DNA of 40,851 nucleotides, taken from Bacteroidaceae bacterium. GTDB lineage: Bacteria > Bacteroidota > Bacteroidia > Bacteroidales > Bacteroidaceae. The DNA lies in the NCBI GenBank assembly GCA_017642425.1, contig JAGCPB010000038.1:1-40851 (forward strand), in the 5' to 3' direction. Below the pieces are notes generated by a model. The model was not told the origin of the DNA, made no database searches, and saw only the letters and a list, made by a program, of their open reading frames with translations. Positions within the stretch are counted from its first letter, which is position 1. The number at the start of each line of letters is the position of its first letter. Made by a program: the position numbers and the translations under genes. Of this stretch, positions 1 through 39,369 are shown in pieces.

Positions 1-1439
1 CGGGCTGCCTTGGTGATGGTCTCACGATAAGGAATCTTGGGCTCCTCAAAGTTGATCATCATCTTATCGTTGTTCTCAATGCACCACTTGAAGGTACGGA
101 GATGGAACTCACCCTGACCGTAAAGGATTACCTGACGGAGCTCCTTAGACTGCTCGATAACGAGTGTGGGATCCTCCTCACGCATACGGTTGACGATGGT
201 CATCATCTTCTCCATATCGGCCTCATTAACGGGCTTGAGAGCACGTGAGTACTTAGAGTTAGGATACTTGATGAAGTTGAATGAACGGTCAGCACCCTCA
301 TTCAGAGTATTGCCGGTACGAACATCCTTAAGTTTAACTGTGCAACCTATATCACCCGGAAGCAACTCAGGAACCTGAACGCGGTTGTTACCCTGACTTA
401 CAAAGATCTGAGCTACGCGCTCCTTTGAGCCACGGTCTGCATTGATCATATCCTGACCCTCGTGAGCCTTGCCGCACATTACCTTGAAGAATGATACAGC
501 ACCGATATGGGGCTCTATTGTGGTCTTGAAGAAGAACAGGGATGTGCCGGAAGCGTCAAGCTTAACGACATCACCCTTGGCATCCTGAACTTCCTTACCC
601 TGCAGAGGTGAGGGAGCTACATTGCCCAGGAACTCTACCAGACGGCTGACGCCGATATTGGGAGCTGCGGCAGTGCAAACGATGGGGAACAGGCCACATG
701 TCTCAATACCCTTACGGAAACCTTCACGAATCTCATCAGTTGAGAGCTCACCCTGATCAAAGAATTTCTCCATGAGAGCCTCATCATTCTCTGCGGCAGA
801 CTCTGTGATGGCATCACGCATGGCCTGAGCCTTATCGGCTACTGCACCGGGGATATCCTCGGCCTTTACAGCTGCACCATCGGTAAATGTGAGCTTCTGG
901 TTGAGAAGAACATCTATTATGCTCTTGAAAGCGGGACCTGACTGCTCGGGGAACTGGATGGGTACACAGATAGTTCCGAATGTGGAACGGATCTGCTCAA
1001 CTACGCTGTCATACTCACACTTATCGCTGTCAACATGGTTGATTACGAAGAAGGCGGGCTTACCCAGTTTCTTGACAAGGCGATAGCTGTTGATGAGACC
1101 TACGTCAACACCGCGGGAACCGTTTACTACCAATATTGCTGAATCACAGATATTGAGGGCGGTTACTGCCTGACCGGAGAAATCATCTGAGCCCGGGCAA
1201 TCAAAGAAGTTGAACTTCTTGCCGAACATCTCGACAGCAAATACAGTTGAATAGACTGAATAGCCATATTCCAACTCTACTGCGGCAGTGTCACTGACTG
1301 TGTTCTTGGAGTTTACTGAACCACGGCGCTTGATCAGGCCGGCCTCAAAAAGGATGCTCTCGGTGAGAGTGGTTTTTCCTGATCCGGCTCCGCCGATTAT
1401 GGCGATGTTCCGGATGTCTTCTGTTTTATAATTCTTCAT
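1..1439 (-). CDS. EF-G-like translation elongation factor (EF-G2 type), 3' end outside window
   Basis: I translated the reverse strand by hand from the ATG ending at 1439; about 479 residues are visible and the C-terminal part lies beyond the left edge. The order matches EF-G: G domain, domain II, then domain III with LYGQGEFHL in place of the usual GMGELHL. The G motifs are atypical. The P-loop is GGAGSGKT (residues 16-23) instead of GHxDxGKT. The switch I RGIT motif is not recognisable. The G3 motif is DCPGS (80-84) instead of DTPGH, so the catalytic histidine is serine. The G4 motif is NHVD (134-137) instead of NKxD. Bacteroides carry a second EF-G (EF-G2) reported to support translocation without GTP hydrolysis; I infer that this is that paralog. 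It has its own promoter and is separated from hemW by 124 bp. The family call is firm and the subtype likely. Confidence 0.88.
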   Translation of the reverse strand, partial: MKNYKTEDIRNIAIIGGAGSGKTTLTESILFEAGLIKRRGSVNSKNTVSDTAAVELEYGYSVYSTVFAVEMFGKKFNFFDCPGSDDFSGQAVTALNICDSAILVVNGSRGVDVGLINSYRLVKKLGKPAFFVINHVDSDKCEYDSVVEQIRSTFGTICVPIQFPEQSGPAFKSIIDVLLNQKLTFTDGAAVKAEDIPGAVADKAQAMRDAITESAAENDEALMEKFFDQGELSTDEIREGFRKGIETCGLFPIVCTAAAPNIGVSRLVEFLGNVAPSPLQGKEVQDAKGDVVKLDASGTSLFFFKTTIEPHIGAVSFFKVMCGKAHEGQDMINADRGSKERVAQIFVSQGNNRVQVPELLPGDIGCTVKLKDVRTGNTLNEGADRSFNFIKYPNSKYSRALKPVNEADMEKMMTIVNRMREEDPTLVIEQSKELRQVILYGQGEFHLRTFKWCIENNDKMMINFEEPKIPYRETITKAA

Positions 1440-1491
1440 ATTGTTAATTATTGATTTGTCTATCAGGTTGAGCCTTCTTTGCAAAGGCTCG

Positions 1492-1523
1492 CAAATTTAT
1501 TTAATTAAGGTGGAAATTCCAAA
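1492..1523 (-). promoter_or_regulatory. Bacteroidota promoter for the EF-G-like gene
   Basis: On the minus strand TTTG (1520-1523) is followed after 20 bp by TAAATTTG (1492-1499), a full match to the Bacteroidota -33/-7 consensus. Transcription should start near 1488, giving a leader of about 48 nt before the ATG at 1439. This would let the gene be regulated apart from hemW-glmM. Confidence 0.7.
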
Positions 1524-5793: not shown

Positions 5794-5824
5794 CAAAGGT
5801 ACTTATTCTTGTTCAAACGGCAAA
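5794..5824 (-). promoter_or_regulatory. Promoter for nrnA, inside the 3' end of comEC
   Basis: On the minus strand TTTG (5821-5824) is followed after 19 bp by TACCTTTG (5794-5801), an exact Bacteroidota consensus. The -7 box lies between the comEC stop (5813) and the nrnA ATG (5784-5786). The predicted transcription start is within a few bases of the ATG. Confidence 0.65.
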
Positions 5825-12461: not shown

Positions 12462-14027
12462 CTAGAACTCACTTGTAAAGTGGAACTTGATATGCTTAAA
12501 GTCTATCTGGGCCATCTGCAGCACATATCCGCTGTCGGCCAGGAAGACGTCACGGCCCTCCATATCGGTGGCCATGAACTGGTACTTGCGCTTCTTGAAA
12601 GCCTCAAGTTCTGCCTCATCATCACTCTCTATCCAGCATGCCTTGTATAGGCTGGCGGGCTCCCAACGGCACAGCGCGTTATACTCATGCTCCAGACGGT
12701 ACTGGATGACCTCAAACTGAAGCTGTCCTACCGTTCCTATAAGTTTGCGTCCGTTGAACTGGCTCACGAACATCTGGGCCACGCCCTCGCCCATAAGCTG
12801 GTCAATACCCTTGGCAAGCTGCTTGGCACGCATGGGATCAGCGTTCTCTATGTACTTGAACATCTCGGGCGAAAAGCTGGGCAAGCCCTTGAAATGAAGT
12901 TTCTCTCCCTGTGTAAGGGTATCACCTATCTTAAAGTTTCCGGTATCCGGAAGGCCGATGATATCGCCCGGCCAGGCCTCCTCAATGGTGCTCTTGCGCT
13001 GCGCCATGAACTGGGTTGGCGACGAGAACCGGAAGGTCTTGTCCAAACGCACGTGATAGTACGGCTCGTTACGCTGGAACCTACCCGAGCAGACCTTGCA
13101 GAACGCCACCGATGAACGGTGGTTGGGGTCGATATTAGCGGTTATCTTGAATATGAATCCGGTAAACTTGCTATCCTCTGGTTCCACCATACGCTCCAGC
13201 GCCTGCGTAGGACGCGGGCTGGGCGCAATCTGCACAAAGCAGTTGAGCAGCTCCTGCACACCGAAGTTGTTCAGGGCCGACCCGAAGAATACCGGGGCAA
13301 GTTCACCGCTCAGATACTGGCTGCGGTCAAACGGTTCATAAACTCCGTCTATCAGTTCCAGGTCAGAGCGCAGCTTGGCAGCCTCACGCTCGCCAACGTG
13401 AGCCTCGAGGTCAGTGCTATTAATATCAACCTCCACCTTCTCTGTAACCTTCTGCTTATCGGGGGTAAACAGGTCCAGCTTCTGCTCATAGATATTATAC
13501 ACGCCTTTAAAGCGGGCTCCTTTCTCTATAGGCCAGCTCAAAGGACGGACATGTATCTGGAGTTCCTCCTCAAGCTCGTCAAGCAAATCAAACGGATCAT
13601 TACCTTCACGGTCCAGCTTGTTGACAAAGACTATCACGGGAGTCTTGCGCATACGGCACACCTCCATGAGGCGGCGCGTCTGCAGCTCAACGCCCTTGGC
13701 GCTGTCAATCACTATGATTACACTGTCTACCGCGGTCAGGGTACGGAACGTATCCTCGGCAAAATCCTGGTGACCCGGGGTATCCAGTATGTTTATCTTG
13801 TAACCTTCATAATCAAACTCCATGACCGATGTGGTCACTGAAATTCCACGCTGTTTCTCAATGTCCATCCAGTCTGATGTGGCGGTCTTGCGTATCTTGT
13901 TTGACTTGACCGCGCCGGCCACCTGAATCTGGCCGCCGAACAGCAGGAACTTCTCAGTAAGTGTGGTCTTACCGGCATCGGGGTGCGATACAATCGCAAA
14001 CGTACGTCTTCTCTCTATCTCTTCCAT
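12462..14027 (-). CDS. prfC: Peptide chain release factor 3
   Basis: The 521-aa translational GTPase recycles RF1/RF2 from the ribosome after termination. All G motifs are canonical: SHPDAGKT near residue 15, QRGISVT in switch I, DTPGHQDF, and NKLDRE. This contrasts with the EF-G paralog at the left edge. The central and C-terminal domains fit RF3 ([29 protein letters not shown]). Spacing is 2 bp from DUF4924 and 0 bp to tsaC. Length is normal. Confidence 0.96.
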
Positions 14028-21582: not shown

Positions 21583-21614
21583 CAAATATAGTCACTGGCC
21601 GAGAGGAATCCAAA
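21583..21614 (-). promoter_or_regulatory. Promoter of ssb-gldE
   Basis: TTTG (21611-21614), 20 bp, then TATATTTG (21583-21590) on the minus strand: full consensus. The leader would be about 25 nt. Confidence 0.7.
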
Positions 21615-32384: not shown

Positions 32385-33533
32385 ATGAAAAAAACTGGTT
32401 TTATCGCTCTGATGGCAGGCCTGCTCACTATGACAGCCTGTTCAGAGAAGGAGGCTCCGGTCCTGAACAGGGCTGACTTCCAGATGGAGTTCACAGGCAA
32501 GAAGACTGACCTGTACAAACTCACTAATGCAAACGGCTGCGAGATTTGGGTTACCAACTTCGGCGCACGTATCGTGGCTATCATGGTTCCGGACAAGAAG
32601 GGACAGATGCAGGATGTAGTCATAGGATTCAAGAACATCAAAGACTACACGACTCAGGCCAGCGACTTTGGTTCAACCGTAGGCCGTTATGCCAACCGTA
32701 TCAACCAGGGCCGTATTACTCTGGACGGTGTGACATACCAGCTGCCGCAGAACAATTTCGGACACTGCCTGCACGGAGGTTGCGACATTACGATCCCTAT
32801 GGGTTGGCAGAACCTGGTCTGGGACGTGAAGGAAGTAAAGGGCAACAGCATCACTCTGGTAATGAACTCACCTGACGGCGAGGCCGGTTTCCCGGGCAAC
32901 GTTGTAGCCACCGCCACCTACACCCTCAATGACAAGAACGCCATTGACATAGTATGGAAGGCCACGACAGACAAGAAGACTGTTGTTAACATGACCAACC
33001 ACAGCTACTTTAACCTGAACGGTGACCACTCAATTCCTATCACCAACCACCTGCTCACTCTGAACGCCAGCAACTTTACTCCCTGTGACGACACTTACAT
33101 GACCACAGGCGAGATTCTGCCTGTAGCAGGAACTCCGATGGACTTCACCAAGGCCAAGGCAATAGGCAAGGAGATTACCAACTTTGACTATGTTCAGCTT
33201 AAGAACGGTAACGGCTATGACCACAACTGGGTCCTGAACACCAAGGGCGATGACACCAAGTGCGCAGCCAAGCTGTACAGCCCCATCACCGGCATCTACG
33301 TTGAGGTTTACACCAACGAGCCGGGTATCCAGTTCTATTCAGGTAACTTCCTGGATGGTTCAGGTCTTGACAAGCAGGGCAACAAGATGGAGCAGCGTAC
33401 AGGCTGCTGCCTGGAGACACAGAAGTTCCCCGACAGCCCCAACAAGTCTAATCTGCCCGGTTGGTACAGCGCAGAGCTTGTTCCCGGTCAGCAGTACTAC
33501 AGCCATTGCATCTACCAGTTCGGCGTAGAATAA
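32385..33533 (+). CDS. Aldose 1-epimerase lipoprotein
   Basis: The 382-aa mutarotase has a lipoprotein signal with TACS and C19, so it is anchored in the envelope. The catalytic set is kept: HCLHGGCDI, NHSYFNLNG and LETQKFPDSPNK. It would convert sugar anomers in the periplasm before transport by the symporter encoded 32 bp downstream. B. thetaiotaomicron has an epimerase gene in its arabinose locus, which supports an arabinose role. Confidence 0.9.
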   Translation: MKKTGFIALMAGLLTMTACSEKEAPVLNRADFQMEFTGKKTDLYKLTNANGCEIWVTNFGARIVAIMVPDKKGQMQDVVIGFKNIKDYTTQASDFGSTVGRYANRINQGRITLDGVTYQLPQNNFGHCLHGGCDITIPMGWQNLVWDVKEVKGNSITLVMNSPDGEAGFPGNVVATATYTLNDKNAIDIVWKATTDKKTVVNMTNHSYFNLNGDHSIPITNHLLTLNASNFTPCDDTYMTTGEILPVAGTPMDFTKAKAIGKEITNFDYVQLKNGNGYDHNWVLNTKGDDTKCAAKLYSPITGIYVEVYTNEPGIQFYSGNFLDGSGLDKQGNKMEQRTGCCLETQKFPDSPNKSNLPGWYSAELVPGQQYYSHCIYQFGVE

Positions 33534-33565
33534 TTACGAAAATCAATCAACTAATTACTAAATAA

Positions 33566-35491
33566 ATGAACAATACAGACATTCTTGGTGCATTGTCAAA
33601 CAACGGTTTCAAACCTATTGACTATGTAGTATTCGTTGCCTATCTGGCAATTCTGATTTTCCTGGGATTTTTCCTGTCCCGCAGTAAAGACGGTAAAGAA
33701 AAGGATTCAAAGGACTACTTCCTGGCCGGTAACACCCTTACATGGTGGGCAGTAGGTGCTTCACTGATCGCCGCAAACATCAGTGCCGAGCAGTTCATCG
33801 GCATGTCAGGTACCGCTTTCGCATCCGGTATCGCAATCGCCGCTTATGAGCTTATGGCTGCAGCTACCCTGCTTGTAGTAGGTAAGTTCCTGCTCCCTGT
33901 CATGATTGAGAAGAAGATTTTCACCATCCCGCAGTTCCTGCGTGAGCGTTACAACCCGGGTACCGGTCTGGCATTCTCAATCTTCTGGCTGTTCCTGTAT
34001 GTATTCGTAAACCTGACTTCTGTTGCATGGCTGGGTGCTCTGGCTATCGAGCAGATCCTGGGTCTGCGCGGATGCGCTCTCCTGATAGGTTCAACAGAGA
34101 TTCCTGTACGTCTTATCATCATTCTCCTGCTCTATCTGATTGCCGGTGTATATTCAATCTACGGTGGTCTGTCATCTGTTGCATGGACCGATGTGATGCA
34201 GGTTACATTCCTGGTTGGTGGTGGTCTTATCACCGCTTATGCAGCTCTGGACGTTATTGCTAACCAACTCAATCTTGAAGGTGGCGCCATGTCTGCTTTA
34301 GGCAAGGTTTACCAAGAACTCAAATCACTGCCTGGAGACTCTCACTTCAACCTGGTTGTGAACCAGGCCAAGACCCCCGATGCATACTTTGACATTCCGG
34401 GTATCGCCGTTATCGTAGGTGCCCTGTGGCTGACCAACCTGGGTTACTGGGGTTTCAACCAGTACATCATCCAGAAGGGTCTTGCCGCAAAGAGTCTGGA
34501 CGAGGCCAAGAAGGGTATGGTATTTGCCGCATTCCTCAAGATTTTGATCCCGTTCATAGTATGTATCCCCGGCGTATGCGCATTCTACATCAAGACCTGC
34601 CGTCCTGAATTGTTCGCAACTCTGGCCGGTGGCATATCGGTATCAGATGACGCTTATCCTTTCCTGATCCGCAACTTTACTCCGGTATTCATCAAGGGTC
34701 TGTCATTCGCAGCTCTCAGTGCAGCCGTTATCTCATCACTGGCTTCAATGTTCAACTCAACATCAACCATCTTCACGATGGATATCTACAAGCAGTACTT
34801 CAAGAAGGATGCTTCTGAGAAGAACCTTGTAAACGTTGGTCGTATCACAGCCGTATGCGCTTTGATTATCGCTCTCTGCAGCGTATATCCTATCCTTGGA
34901 AGCATGGACCAGGCATTCCAGTTCATACAGGAGTATTCAGGATTCGTATATCCCGGTATCGTAGTCATCTTTGGTCTGGGTCTGCTCTGGAAGCGCGCAT
35001 CAGGTCCTGCTGCTGTTGTAGCCGCTATCGGTACATTCGCATTCTCTATCCTGTTCAAGTTCATCATGCCTAACACTCCGTTCATGCTCCGCATGGGTTA
35101 TGTGTTCATGGTTCTGGTTGCCATCTTTATCCCGATGTCACTTTACAACAAGAGCAGAATCGTTGAGGCCGACAAGCTTGACCAGCACACCATTGACGCT
35201 CAGATGAAGTGGTCACAGATACTCTTTATCTGCGCTGCAATCAGCCTGATTTTCGCAATTATCGGTGTAATCAATCCGGTACTGCGCGGTTGGGGATTCG
35301 AGGCTCTGTTCTTCTTTGCAGCTATTCTGGCTGTCCTGGGTCTTTACCTGCGTTCCAACGCCAAGGATAAGGTTCAGGATGCAAAGGCTGTAGGCATTGA
35401 CCTGGAGCTCTTCAAGACCGACAAGTCATTCAACTGGGGTGCTCTTGGCGTTATCGTAATCCTGGCTATTCTCTATATCTTCCTCTGGTAA
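33566..35491 (+). CDS. Sodium:solute symporter (SSS family), probable sugar/arabinose importer
   Basis: The 641-aa inner-membrane protein has about 14 hydrophobic segments and the SSS signatures ([23 protein letters not shown] near residue 60; [19 protein letters not shown] near 390-410). It resembles SGLT-type Na+/sugar carriers. The gene is placed before araD-araA-kinase, as is the SSS importer in the B. thetaiotaomicron arabinose locus, so L-arabinose is the likely substrate; galactose is an alternative. Codons favour GGT, GCT and CTG more than in the flanking older-looking genes, as expected for strong expression. Confidence 0.9.
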
Positions 35492-35495
35492 TATC

Positions 35496-36215
35496 ATGCT
35501 TGAAGAACTTAAAGAGAAGGTATTCCGTGCCAATCTGGATCTAGTAAAGCACGGTCTGGTAATATTCACATGGGGCAACGTATCGGGCATTGACCGTGAG
35601 AAAGGCCTCGTTGTGATCAAGCCCAGCGGCGTGAGCTACGACACGATGAAGGCAAGTGATATGGTTGTAGTCTCCCTCGAGACCGGTAAGGTTGTCGAGG
35701 GGGATCTCAACCCTTCATCGGACACCCCTACTCACCTGGTACTTTACAGAGCTTTCCCAAACATCGGAGGTGTAGTACATACCCATTCCTCTTATGCTAC
35801 GGCATGGGCACAGGCCGGTCGTGACATCCCCAACATCGGAACCACTCACGCGGATTATTTCCACGATGACATTCCTTGCACCAGGGACATGAAAAAGGCC
35901 GAGGTGTTTGGCGAATACGAGAAAGAGACCGGAAACGTGATCGTAGAGCGTTTCAAGGGAATGAATCCCGATGACACGCCAGCCGTTCTGGTGAAGAATC
36001 ACGGTCCGTTTGCATGGGGTACAGATCCTGATAATGCAGTTCACAACGCTGTCGTCCTTGAGGAGGTTGCCAAGATGGGATTCATTGCATCGACCCTGCA
36101 CCTCAACACGCTTGACGTTGTGGATCACGTACCGTCAATGAACAAGCTCCTGATTGAGAAGCACTATAGCCGTAAGCATGGCCCCAACGCCTACTACGGC
36201 CAGAAGAAAAAGTAA
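35496..36215 (+). CDS. araD: L-ribulose-5-phosphate 4-epimerase
   Basis: The 239-aa class II aldolase-like enzyme converts L-ribulose-5-phosphate to D-xylulose-5-phosphate. Zinc and catalytic residues can be placed: D76 (SSDTPTH), H95 and H97 (VVHTHSSY) and H169 (KNHGPFAWG), close to the E. coli AraD numbering. It starts 4 bp after the symporter stop and lies 21 bp before araA. Its product enters the pentose phosphate pathway, where rpe (7.4 kb) acts. Confidence 0.95.
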
Positions 36216-36236
36216 CACTATAAAAAAAGGATATTT

Positions 36237-37769
36237 ATGTTTGATAATTTTGAAATTTGGTGGGTCACCGGTGCACAGCTCCTTTACGGAGGCGATGCAG
36301 TAGTTGCAGTGGACGGTCACTCAAAGGAGATGGTTGAAGGTCTGAACAAGAGCGGAAACATCCCCGTCAAGATAGTATATAAAGGTACTGCCAACAGCAG
36401 CAACGAGGTTGAGGCCGTAATGAAGGCTGCCAACAATGACAGCAAGTGTATAGGTATCATCACCTGGATGCACACATTCAGCCCCGCTAAGATGTGGATC
36501 AAGGGTCTGCAGGCTCTTGAGAAGCCCCTGCTCCACTTCCACACACAGTACAACACCGATATTCCCTGGGACACCATCGATATGGACTTTATGAACCTGA
36601 ACCAGAGCGCCCACGGCGACATCGAGTTCGGTCACATATGCACCCGTATGCGTGTACCCCGCAAGGTTGTGGTAGGCCACTGGAAGAGCGTTGAGGCTCA
36701 GAAGCAGATTGCCGTATGGGCTCGCGCCGCTGCCGGCCGTGCCGATGCACACAACGTACGCTGCCTTATGTTCGGTATGAACATGAACAACGTGGCTGTT
36801 ACAGACGGTGACCGCGTTGAGTTTGAGCAGCGCATGGGTTACCATGTTGACTACTACCCCGTATCATCACTGATGGACTACTTCAAGAAGGTTACCGATG
36901 CCGAGGCCGATGCCCTTGTTGAGGAGTACAAGAAGCTCTACACCATCAAGATCGATGAGAGCGGCGAGAAGGTATACTGGGAGAAGGTTAAGAACGCAGC
37001 CAAGGCTGAGATAGCTCTGCGTCGCGTGCTCAAGGATGAGAACGCTACCGCTTTCACCACCAACTTTGACGACCTGGGTGATGCCGATATCGACGCCCCT
37101 GATTTCTGCGGATTCGACCAGATTCCGGGCCTGGCATCACAGCGTCTGATGCAGGAGGGTTACGGTTTCGGTGCCGAGGGCGACTGGAAGACAGCCTGCC
37201 TGCAGCGTACTCTCTGGGTTATGAACCAGGGTATGCCCAAGGGTTGCTCATTCCTTGAGGACTACACCCTGAACTTTGCCGCCGACTGCACATCAAGCCT
37301 GCAGAGCCATATGCTGGAGATCTGCCCGCTTATTGCTACCGGCAAGCCCAAGCTGGAGGTTCATTTCCTTGGCATAGGTATCCGCAAGCAGCAGACCGCC
37401 CGCCTGGTATTCACATCCAAGACCGGCCGTGGTATCAAGGCAACCGTTGTTGACCTGGGTAACCGTTTCCGTCTTATTACCAGCGAGGTAGAGTGCATCG
37501 AACCCAAACCGATGCCCAAACTGCCGGTTGCATCGGCCCTCTGGGTTCCGCAGCCTACATTCGAGATTGGCGCAGGCGCATGGATACTGGCAGGTGGCAC
37601 ACACCACAGTGCTTTCTCATACGATATCACTGCCGAGTATTGGGAGGATTTTGCCGAGATGTGCGGTATAGAGTACATCGGTATCGACAAGAATACCACT
37701 ATCAGCAGTTTCAAGCAGCAGCTTCGTAACAACGAGGTTTATTACATGCTAAACAAAGCCCTGAAGTGA
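36237..37769 (+). CDS. araA: L-arabinose isomerase
   Basis: The 510-aa enzyme isomerises L-arabinose to L-ribulose. Family features include WWVTGAQLLYG near the N terminus, ITWMHTFSPAKMWI, HFHTQYNTDIPW, FGAEGDWKTACLQRTLW with the metal-binding E, FLEDYTLNF, SHMLEICP and GGTHHSAFS. AAAGGA lies 7 nt before the ATG. The kinase gene follows after 1 bp. Confidence 0.97.
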   Translation: MFDNFEIWWVTGAQLLYGGDAVVAVDGHSKEMVEGLNKSGNIPVKIVYKGTANSSNEVEAVMKAANNDSKCIGIITWMHTFSPAKMWIKGLQALEKPLLHFHTQYNTDIPWDTIDMDFMNLNQSAHGDIEFGHICTRMRVPRKVVVGHWKSVEAQKQIAVWARAAAGRADAHNVRCLMFGMNMNNVAVTDGDRVEFEQRMGYHVDYYPVSSLMDYFKKVTDAEADALVEEYKKLYTIKIDESGEKVYWEKVKNAAKAEIALRRVLKDENATAFTTNFDDLGDADIDAPDFCGFDQIPGLASQRLMQEGYGFGAEGDWKTACLQRTLWVMNQGMPKGCSFLEDYTLNFAADCTSSLQSHMLEICPLIATGKPKLEVHFLGIGIRKQQTARLVFTSKTGRGIKATVVDLGNRFRLITSEVECIEPKPMPKLPVASALWVPQPTFEIGAGAWILAGGTHHSAFSYDITAEYWEDFAEMCGIEYIGIDKNTTISSFKQQLRNNEVYYMLNKALK

Positions 37770-37770
37770 T

Positions 37771-39369
37771 ATGGCATACGATCCCAAATCAGTAATTGAG
37801 AAAGGTCAGGCCATACTCGGTATCGAGTTTGGCTCGACCCGTATCAAGGCTGTGCTCATTGATCCTGAGTACAAGCCTATAGCACAAGGCAGTCATACAT
37901 GGGAAAACCAGTTGGTTAACGGTCTTTGGACATACAGCGTAGAGAGCATCTGGTTCGGTCTGCAGGACTGCTATGCAAACCTGCGTGAGAACGTGCTCAA
38001 GCAGTACGAAGTTGAGATTGAGAACCTTGCAGCAATTGGCGTAAGCGCCATGATGCACGGCTATATGCCGTTTGACAAGCATGGTGACATACTGGTTCCG
38101 TTCCGCACATGGCGTAACACCAACACCGCCAAGGCAGCCGCCGAGTTGTCCGACCTGTTCGTGTTCAACGTACCTCTGCGCTGGAGCATATCACATCTGT
38201 ATCAGGCTATTCTGGACAACGAGCCGCACGTTAAGAATATTGATTTCCTGACCACTCTGGCAGGTTTCATCCACTGGCAGCTCACAGGCAAGAGAGTTCT
38301 GGGCGTCGGTGACGCATCGGGTATGATTCCCGTTGATCCCAAGACCAAGACCTACAATGCCGATATGGTAGCCAAGTTTGACAAGCTGATTGCTACCAAG
38401 GGTTATCCCTGGAAGCTGCTTGACATTCTGCCCAAGTCACTTGATGCAGGCCAGGATGCAGGCGTGCTGACCGAGGCCGGCGCACGCAAGCTGGATATCA
38501 CCGGTCATCTTAAGCCGGGTGCTCCCATCTGCCCGCCCGAGGGCGATGCTGGTACAGGCATGGTGGCAACCAACGCCGTACGTCCGCGCACCGGTAACGT
38601 ATCGGCCGGAACATCATCATTCTCTATGATAGTACTTGAGAAAGATCTTAAGAAGCCGCATGATGTAATCGATATCGTTACCACTCCCGATGGCAGCCCC
38701 GTTGCCATGGTTCACTGCAACAACTGCACAAGTGACCTGAACGCATGGGTTAACTTGTTCAAGGAGTTTGAGGAGGTGATGGGTATTCCCGTTGATATGG
38801 GCAAACTCTTTACCAACCTGTTCAATGTTGCCCTCAAGGGCAATCCTGACTGCGGCGGCATTATGAGCTACAACTACGTATCAGGTGAGCCTGTTACCGG
38901 TTTTGCCGACGGACGCCCGCTGTTTGTACGTTCTGCAAATGACAAGTTCAACCTGGCCAACTTTATGCGCGCTATCATAAGCGGTGCAATAGGTGTACTC
39001 AAGGTGGGTAATGATATCCTGTTCAACGAGGAGAAGATCAAGGTGGACCGTATTACCGGTCACGGTGGTCTGTTTACTACTCCGGGCGTAGGCCAGAGGA
39101 TTCTGGGCGCTGCACTGAACTCACCTATCTCCTGCATGAAGACTGCAGGTGAGGGCGGTCCCTGGGGTATGGCAATACTGGCATCGTACCTTATCAACAA
39201 CAAGAAGAAGCAGTCATTGGCTGAGTTCCTTGACGATCAGGTATTTGCCGGCGATACCGGAACATCGGTCGCTCCTACCCCTGAGGATGTAGCAGGATTC
39301 AACGCATACATTGAAAACTACAAGAAATGCCTGCCTATTGAGGCTGCAGCTGTAGAATACAAAAAATGA
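37771..39369 (+). CDS. FGGY-family carbohydrate kinase, probable L-ribulokinase
   Basis: The 532-aa sugar kinase has the FGGY fold: phosphate 1 motif GIEFGSTRIKAVL (about 17-29), GVSAMMHGYM, GNVSAGTSSFSM and the C-terminal RITGHGGLFTTPGVGQRILGAAL. Its place after araD-araA fits the step L-ribulose to L-ribulose-5-phosphate. It does not look like E. coli AraB in detail and resembles the separate kinase type of Bacteroides arabinose loci; a xylulokinase role is the alternative. The stop codon lies inside the following terminator stem. Confidence 0.88.
   Translation: MAYDPKSVIEKGQAILGIEFGSTRIKAVLIDPEYKPIAQGSHTWENQLVNGLWTYSVESIWFGLQDCYANLRENVLKQYEVEIENLAAIGVSAMMHGYMPFDKHGDILVPFRTWRNTNTAKAAAELSDLFVFNVPLRWSISHLYQAILDNEPHVKNIDFLTTLAGFIHWQLTGKRVLGVGDASGMIPVDPKTKTYNADMVAKFDKLIATKGYPWKLLDILPKSLDAGQDAGVLTEAGARKLDITGHLKPGAPICPPEGDAGTGMVATNAVRPRTGNVSAGTSSFSMIVLEKDLKKPHDVIDIVTTPDGSPVAMVHCNNCTSDLNAWVNLFKEFEEVMGIPVDMGKLFTNLFNVALKGNPDCGGIMSYNYVSGEPVTGFADGRPLFVRSANDKFNLANFMRAIISGAIGVLKVGNDILFNEEKIKVDRITGHGGLFTTPGVGQRILGAALNSPISCMKTAGEGGPWGMAILASYLINNKKKQSLAEFLDDQVFAGDTGTSVAPTPEDVAGFNAYIENYKKCLPIEAAAVEYKK

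Follow-up and report, generated by a model that had tools for sequence, protein, structure and literature searches.

The closest described relative of the gene analysed here is fusA2 (BT2167) of Bacteroides thetaiotaomicron, which codes for a second elongation factor G, EF-G2. The fusA2 gene shows the largest mRNA rise on carbon limitation in this bacterium (238-fold) and is bound and activated by the regulator Cur (BT4338) via a 22-bp site resembling wwwTATGTTnTAnAACATAwww (PMC6989115). According to PMC10294740, B. fragilis, B. ovatus, and B. vulgatus share this induction; BT4338 and its orthologues are reported to be autoregulated (PMC3878776), and the arabinose operon of B. thetaiotaomicron is a Cur target (PMC3878776, PMC6989115). 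B. thetaiotaomicron EF-G2 is stated to translocate without GTP hydrolysis in passages of PMC12775393 and PMC10294740 that both cite Han et al. 2023. At the level of the protein family, Margus et al. 2011 (PMC3150367) describe the switch I sequence YGYSV as the variant of EFG II found in a Bacteroidetes sub-subgroup; its Ser preserves the hydroxyl of the Thr that RGITI has there.

The window, i.e., the whole stretch of 40,851 nucleotides that was analysed, corresponds to one contig (C29) of an assembly of 2.62 Mb in 114 contigs that is 87% complete. An EF-G2 gene is cut by the contig end; its frame runs without a stop for 479 amino acids from the initiation codon to the window edge (Table 1). 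The remainder opens contig C15 (L007:3-782, plus strand), which supplies 259 residues followed by a stop codon. The two pieces have 22 identical residues in common, the last 237 residues being present in C15 only, and their joining yields a protein of 716 amino acids. The nucleotide overlap between the contigs is 70 bases long with 3 mismatches, a pattern as for strain variants at an assembly break.

Table 1. Features of the window discussed in the text (positions counted from its first nucleotide).
Feature	Position	Strand	Remark
EF-G2 (fusA2) coding region, residues 1-479 of 716	3..1439	-	ATG at 1439, stop-free to window edge
G4 NHVD, residues 134-137	1029..1040	-	His for Lys of NKxD
G3 DCPGS, residues 80-84	1188..1202	-	Ser for catalytic His
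G2/switch I YGYSV	1254..1268	-	Bacteroidetes EFG II variant replacing RGITI
G1/P-loop GGAGSGKT, residues 16-23	1371..1394	-	fits GxxxxGK[ST]
Predicted hairpin (GAGCCTT...AAGGCTC)	1470..1490	-	start of 5' leader, directly after -7 box
-7 box TAAATTTG	1492..1499	-	TAnnTTTG consensus
-33 box TTTG	1520..1523	-	20 bases upstream of -7 box
prfC (RF3), control GTPase	12462..14027	-	motifs intact, including NKLD
Arabinose operon: aldose epimerase, symporter, AraD, AraA, AraB	32385..39369	+	

The joined protein passes the NCBIfam model NF058620 (EFG2_Bacteroid, “elongation factor G2”) with 1156 bits for a cut-off of 1000. The window fragment alone scores 666.4 bits and its relative L010, which is 97% identical to the window protein, 1157.1 bits. 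The top solved match to the window part is B. thetaiotaomicron EF-G2 (652 bits), and L010 is 62% identical to PDB 8dmf. An earlier note on this DNA, made from its sequence, had proposed a link to the EF-G2 of Bacteroides, and both the family model and the structure match agree with it. The likeness extends to protein family, length class, YGYSV, and DCPGSDDF (8dmf, 7uvp). In G4, B. thetaiotaomicron EF-G2 reads NQLD, its Lys being lost as well, where the window protein reads NHVD. The joined protein remains below the cut-offs of the canonical EF-G model TIGR00484 (467.3 versus 659.4 bits; RGITI and DTPGH differ) and of the tetracycline ribosomal protection model NF012153 (231.8 versus 775 bits). 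The EF-G2 chain of 7uvp and 8dmf bears the depositors' molecule name tetracycline resistance protein TetQ, while the title of 8dmf reads EF-G2; the molecule name could mislead annotation. A structure prediction of L010 was poor (mean pLDDT 62.9, pTM 0.48) and served only for retrieving PDB titles.

The genome also carries a complete canonical fusA (contig C3, L008:591-2708, minus strand) that scores 965.2 bits with TIGR00484 (cut-off 659.4), has two small neighbouring genes taken for rpsL and rpsG, and keeps RGITI, DTPGH, and NKMD intact. Because this gene exists, the reservation of the earlier note that the window gene might be the only EF-G of the genome falls away. EF-G2 and this EF-G1 are 31% identical. 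The window gene is the known Bacteroidales EF-G2, a paralogue of EF-G; the protein itself has been described already and the motif observation alone is ordinary. Two side observations were made on the canonical genes. The P-loop of EF-G1 reads AHIDDGKTT in the window genome and AHIDAGKTT in 18/18 other genomes compared, which is either a change in a single genome or an assembly error. Another member of the genus has a second EF-G1-like gene (L228; G276:C89:18315-20363) that is 51% identical to the canonical EF-G of the window genome.

Translation of the minus strand from the ATG at 1439 reproduces the motif readings of the earlier note: GGAGSGKT in the P-loop, no RGIT in switch I, DCPGS with Ser for His, and NHVD. 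Its summary that every G motif is changed holds only in part. The G3 His and the G4 Lys are lost and YGYSV replaces RGITI in switch I, but the P-loop (general consensus GxxxxGK[ST]), DxPG, and the N and D of G4 are kept, and the switch I Ser keeps a hydroxyl. The motifs of the prfC GTPase are intact, as had been noted. Relatives were counted among the best 80 of 382 matches. In this sample G1 fits G....GKT and switch I is YGYSV in 80/80, and the position of the catalytic His is occupied by Ser (70), Ala (7), or Thr (3), never by His. G4 is more variable (NQLD 44, NHVD 21, NYVD 8, NNVD 3, NKLD 2, NFVD 1, SNVD 1). The changes are family-wide among these best 80 of 382 matches and not private to the window gene. 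Because this family-wide pattern keeps the P-loop and never has the catalytic His, nucleotide binding is probably intact in the window EF-G2 and the loss would be one of catalysis. The protein resembles the EFG II subfamily by a relaxed RGITI with Ser at the fourth position (PMC3150367); it differs by NHVD, since the same paper gives NKxD as conserved in EFG II. When aligned with the EF-G1 of the same genome, EF-G2 displays an insert of 27 residues in domain IV, a region kept in 77/77 relatives longer than 600 amino acids (among the best 80 of 382). Han et al. (2023, EMBO J) reportedly trace the lack of GTPase activity to 26 residues that are specific to EF-G2. By homology with B. thetaiotaomicron EF-G2, whose switch motifs are identical, the window EF-G2 would translocate without GTP hydrolysis.

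EF-G2 was detected at E ≤ 1e-90 in 225/247 genomes sampled from the order, 90/91 from the family, and 36/37 from the genus; in these 36/37 genus genomes its frame is free of internal stops. The dN/dS of the window part ranges from 0.03 to 0.05 in comparisons with 8 close relatives. The gene is under purifying selection and is not decaying. Codon adaptation of EF-G2, scored against the EF-G1 of each genome and expressed as the excess over neighbouring genes, averages +0.124 in the genus (n = 6) and +0.060 in the others (n = 12; of the 13 outgroup genomes, G287 is left out, its EF-G2 frame not having been recovered). This difference has a Mann–Whitney p of 0.028 for genomes that are phylogenetically non-independent; the lowest excess of the genus is that of G276 (+0.051), and outgroups G283 and G288 are as high as the genus. 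The bias fits weakly with expression during growth. As a proof of high expression it was discarded, being only supportive because the genomes are not independent. A fast evolution specific to EF-G2 was likewise rejected: the branch of the genus is similarly long for EF-G1 (stem of 0.246, versus 0.293 for EF-G2). Across 19 genomes, identity between genus and outgroup is 69.8% for EF-G1 and 65.1% for EF-G2, and between outgroups 78.9% and 74.0%, respectively; the EF-G2 of G165 in this comparison is partial (632 amino acids).

The promoter consensus of Bacteroides consists of TTTG at −33 and TAnnTTTG at −7. Upstream of EF-G2 the exact arrangement TTTG-N20-TAAATTTG is found (1523-1492, minus strand), followed by a predicted leader of about 50 nt. 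The exact pattern, with a spacer of 19 or 20, occurs three times in the whole window (1492-1523, 5794-5824, 21583-21614), always on the minus strand and close to where an open frame of that strand begins. The earlier note had given the gene a promoter of its own that would allow separate control. The promoter is there in the sequence, but it is of the consensus type and tight starvation-only control of the window EF-G2 is therefore less likely. In the window and its relatives, leaders are predicted to fold at ≤ −4 kcal/mol in 26/35 cases, with stem letters often changed; folding is weaker in L025, L030, L031, and L037-L042.

The Cur operator TATGTTnTAnAACATA was not found upstream of the window EF-G2, where the best match covers 8 of 14 positions (mean of shuffled sequences 8.8). 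The upstream scan covered the window and 78 of the 80 loci (L066 and L089 have too little upstream DNA), again among the best 80 of 382 matches. The genus set consists of the window and loci L010-L043, which are 69-97% identical in the window part. A consensus promoter (spacing 18-21) precedes EF-G2 in 33/35 genus loci versus 0/44 others. The operator is present at ≥12 of 14 positions in 0/35 genus loci and in 25/44 others, and at ≥11 in 1/35 and 29/44, respectively. All shuffles used in this analysis preserve base composition only; here they yield the promoter in 0.3-0.5% of cases and an operator at ≥12 in 0.3-0.4%. The genus of the window differs in this way from B. thetaiotaomicron fusA2: it has a consensus promoter, and neither a Cur operator nor a Cur-like regulator was found. 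Among the non-genus loci, a second lineage, of eight loci around L049 (L047, L049, L050, L053, L058, L062, L067, L069), shows no operator before EF-G2 (≤10/14); the regulator is present in 7/8 of these genomes.

The candidate for Cur is a Crp/Fnr protein that is 60-80% conserved between six outgroup genomes. The candidates of G059 and G165 are 80.8% identical, the only Crp-like pair of these two genomes at the level published for Bacteroides (77-96% to BT4338); the next pairs reach 68.5, 67.5, and 53.6% in a comparison that took in 10 of the 11 G165 hits. A Cur motif lies before the candidate's own gene at ≥12 positions in 9/40 genomes (null 0.6%) and at ≥11 in 16/40 (null 6.7%), a set of 40 of the 41 matching genomes (one stretch has 104 bases only); this agrees with the published autoregulation of BT4338. 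An earlier look at the promoters of six members had given a weak signal (11/14 in 4/6, single-sequence p of 0.04-0.14). We infer from these comparisons that the candidate is Cur. It was found in 0/37 genus genomes at E ≤ 1e-6, 8 of them with a completeness of 90% or more, and in 41/46 non-genus EF-G2 genomes at E ≤ 1e-30. As a positive control, the same query matched 61/91 family genomes; of the 5 genus genomes included in the 91 it matched none. The sole PF00027 match of the window genome falls in a different paralogue group. Of the five non-genus genomes that lack the regulator, two do show an operator (L082, 14/14; L088, 11/14). Counted genome-wide on one strand with ≤1 mismatch, the Cur motif occurs 2 times in 8 genus genomes (9 for the reversed-pattern control) and 39 times in 6 other genomes (7 for the control). 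With neither regulator nor operator found in the genus, the starvation use that the earlier note held probable is not supported there.

Within the non-genus loci alone (n = 44) the link between operator and regulator is weak (operator at ≥11 in 27/39 with the regulator and 2/5 without). The test was carried out also on the Bacteroidaceae, where 89 of 91 genomes have a readable upstream region (the exceptions are G376, for lack of an EF-G2 match, and G391, because of contig ends). Six weak regulator matches (39-50%), one of which has an operator at ≥11, were set aside after the identities were known. The EF-G2 operator is found at ≥11 in 41/54 genomes with the regulator versus 4/29 without (Fisher p = 4.6e-8) and at ≥12 in 29/54 versus 3/29 (p = 1.1e-4); these p-values are nominal because the genomes are not independent. 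The association is visible also inside genera. Operator scores (of 14) in g186 are 13, 13, and 12 where the regulator is present and 9 and 10 where it is absent; in g183 they are 12 and 10, 9, 9, respectively. Operator and regulator thus occur together across the Bacteroidaceae and EF-G2 persists. No published report of EF-G2 persisting after loss of the Cur switch, here with a consensus promoter in its stead, was found in a limited open-licence literature judged by titles and abstract openings, including that on Prevotella.

The exact consensus promoter is present in 1/21 other regulator-less genomes and in 2/54 genomes with the regulator, and a near promoter (≥9/10 positions) in 8/21 and 11/54, respectively, and in 4.9% of shuffles. 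G357, G363, and G410 are not part of this set of 21: an operator is present in each, other sampled members of their genera match the regulator (weakly in the case of G363), and the regulator may be missing from these three assemblies. Because only 1/21 carries the exact promoter, regulator loss was rejected as its sole cause, and this promoter is for the most part a peculiarity of the window's genus. In genus g192 the exact consensus promoter occurs in two genomes that have the regulator and no operator.

The genes flanking EF-G2 were compared among the best 80 of 382 matches. On the upstream side, pgm precedes EF-G2 in 30/32 genus loci versus 1/30 others and hemW in 21/32 versus 0/35 (BLAST filter). 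Since the upstream neighbours differ, a rearrangement may have accompanied the promoter change, and transcripts that enter from the genes upstream may contribute to EF-G2 expression. A histidine kinase gene and rprY lie after EF-G2 (L007:822-3222). The window holds a second target of the Bacteroides Cur (BT4338) regulon beside fusA2, the arabinose operon. Unlike in that regulon, neither target has an operator in the window: none was found at the arabinose operon, and a search of the whole 40.9-kb window with ≤3 mismatches returned a single match (1.2 expected), at 12849, far from the operon. No gene lies between the symporter and AraD genes in the window, where the name of the B. thetaiotaomicron operon, araMPRDAB, places araR (PMC3878776).

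These observations can be assembled into the following scheme. In Bacteroides, expression of the EF-G2 gene is low in sugar and turned on by Cur at carbon starvation. In the genus of the window, composed of Bacteroidaceae from rumen and horse gut, the Cur-like regulator and its operator appear to be missing, and an exact-consensus housekeeping promoter with its leader of about 50 nt stands before the gene instead. EF-G2 would bind guanine nucleotide via the intact P-loop, promote translocation without GTP hydrolysis, and be made in ordinary growth alongside canonical EF-G, sparing GTP. Synthesis during ordinary growth is most likely because Cur control is missing and the consensus housekeeping promoter is present; constitutive expression and a growth role in this genus are thus what the sequences suggest. 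As a whole, the reading of EF-G2 as a GTP-sparing second translocase of ordinary growth, beside canonical EF-G, with the Cur switch gone and a consensus promoter instead, appears to us reasonably probable.

A different possibility, which we consider unlikely, is that EF-G2 is still a starvation factor and that another regulator replaced Cur, for instance the RprXY system encoded downstream or a repressor acting on the consensus promoter. A consensus core promoter may indeed still be regulated. RprXY would be well placed: among the best 80 of 382 matches, rprX follows EF-G2 in 31/31 and rprY in 28/28 genus loci with enough flank, and RprY exceeds the cut-off of its NCBIfam model (433.9 versus 370 bits). 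However, rprY is downstream in 20/36 other loci and rprX in 20/40, 7 of which have a Cur operator, so that RprXY is no special substitute for Cur, and codon adaptation suggests growth expression, if weakly. It is still less probable that EF-G2 hydrolyses GTP and acts as a second ordinary translocase or as a ribosome-recycling factor, roles that have been proposed or shown for some other EF-G paralogues. The conserved P-loop, switch I Ser, DxPG, and N..D would be in keeping with such an activity, and Thermus thermophilus EF-G-2, another EFG II, is reported to hydrolyse GTP (PMC3150367). The absence of the catalytic His from all of the best 80 of 382 matches speaks against it, as does the closest characterised protein, whose G2 and G3 letters are identical and which is reported as active without hydrolysis (PMC12775393, PMC10294740). 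A decaying paralogue or an assembly artefact, finally, could be suspected from the cut at the contig edge, the base differences at the join (3/70), and a few shorter relatives. This explanation is refuted by the intact frames of the genus genomes, the low dN/dS in 8 pairs, and the presence of EF-G2 in nearly all Bacteroidaceae genomes, and we give it almost no credit.

The growth-phase reading of EF-G2 leads to a broader proposal that we advance tentatively and with more doubt than confidence: the non-hydrolysing EF-G2 may have left the starvation response to become standing translation machinery of the growth phase, and its uncoupling from Cur may have taken place several times in the Bacteroidaceae. 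If this is true, the ribosomes of a growing cell would be served by two EF-Gs, one that consumes GTP and one that does not. The co-occurrence of operator and regulator across the family extends the link of Cur with EF-G2 past the few Bacteroides species that have been studied. The published role of EF-G2 is in starvation and gut colonisation under Cur, and the genus described here, which maintains EF-G2 under strong purifying selection and in which the starvation switch was not found, separates the protein from such a context. It makes two questions testable: whether a growing cell benefits from an EF-G devoid of GTPase activity, and whether such a factor needs starvation control or has it as one wiring of several.
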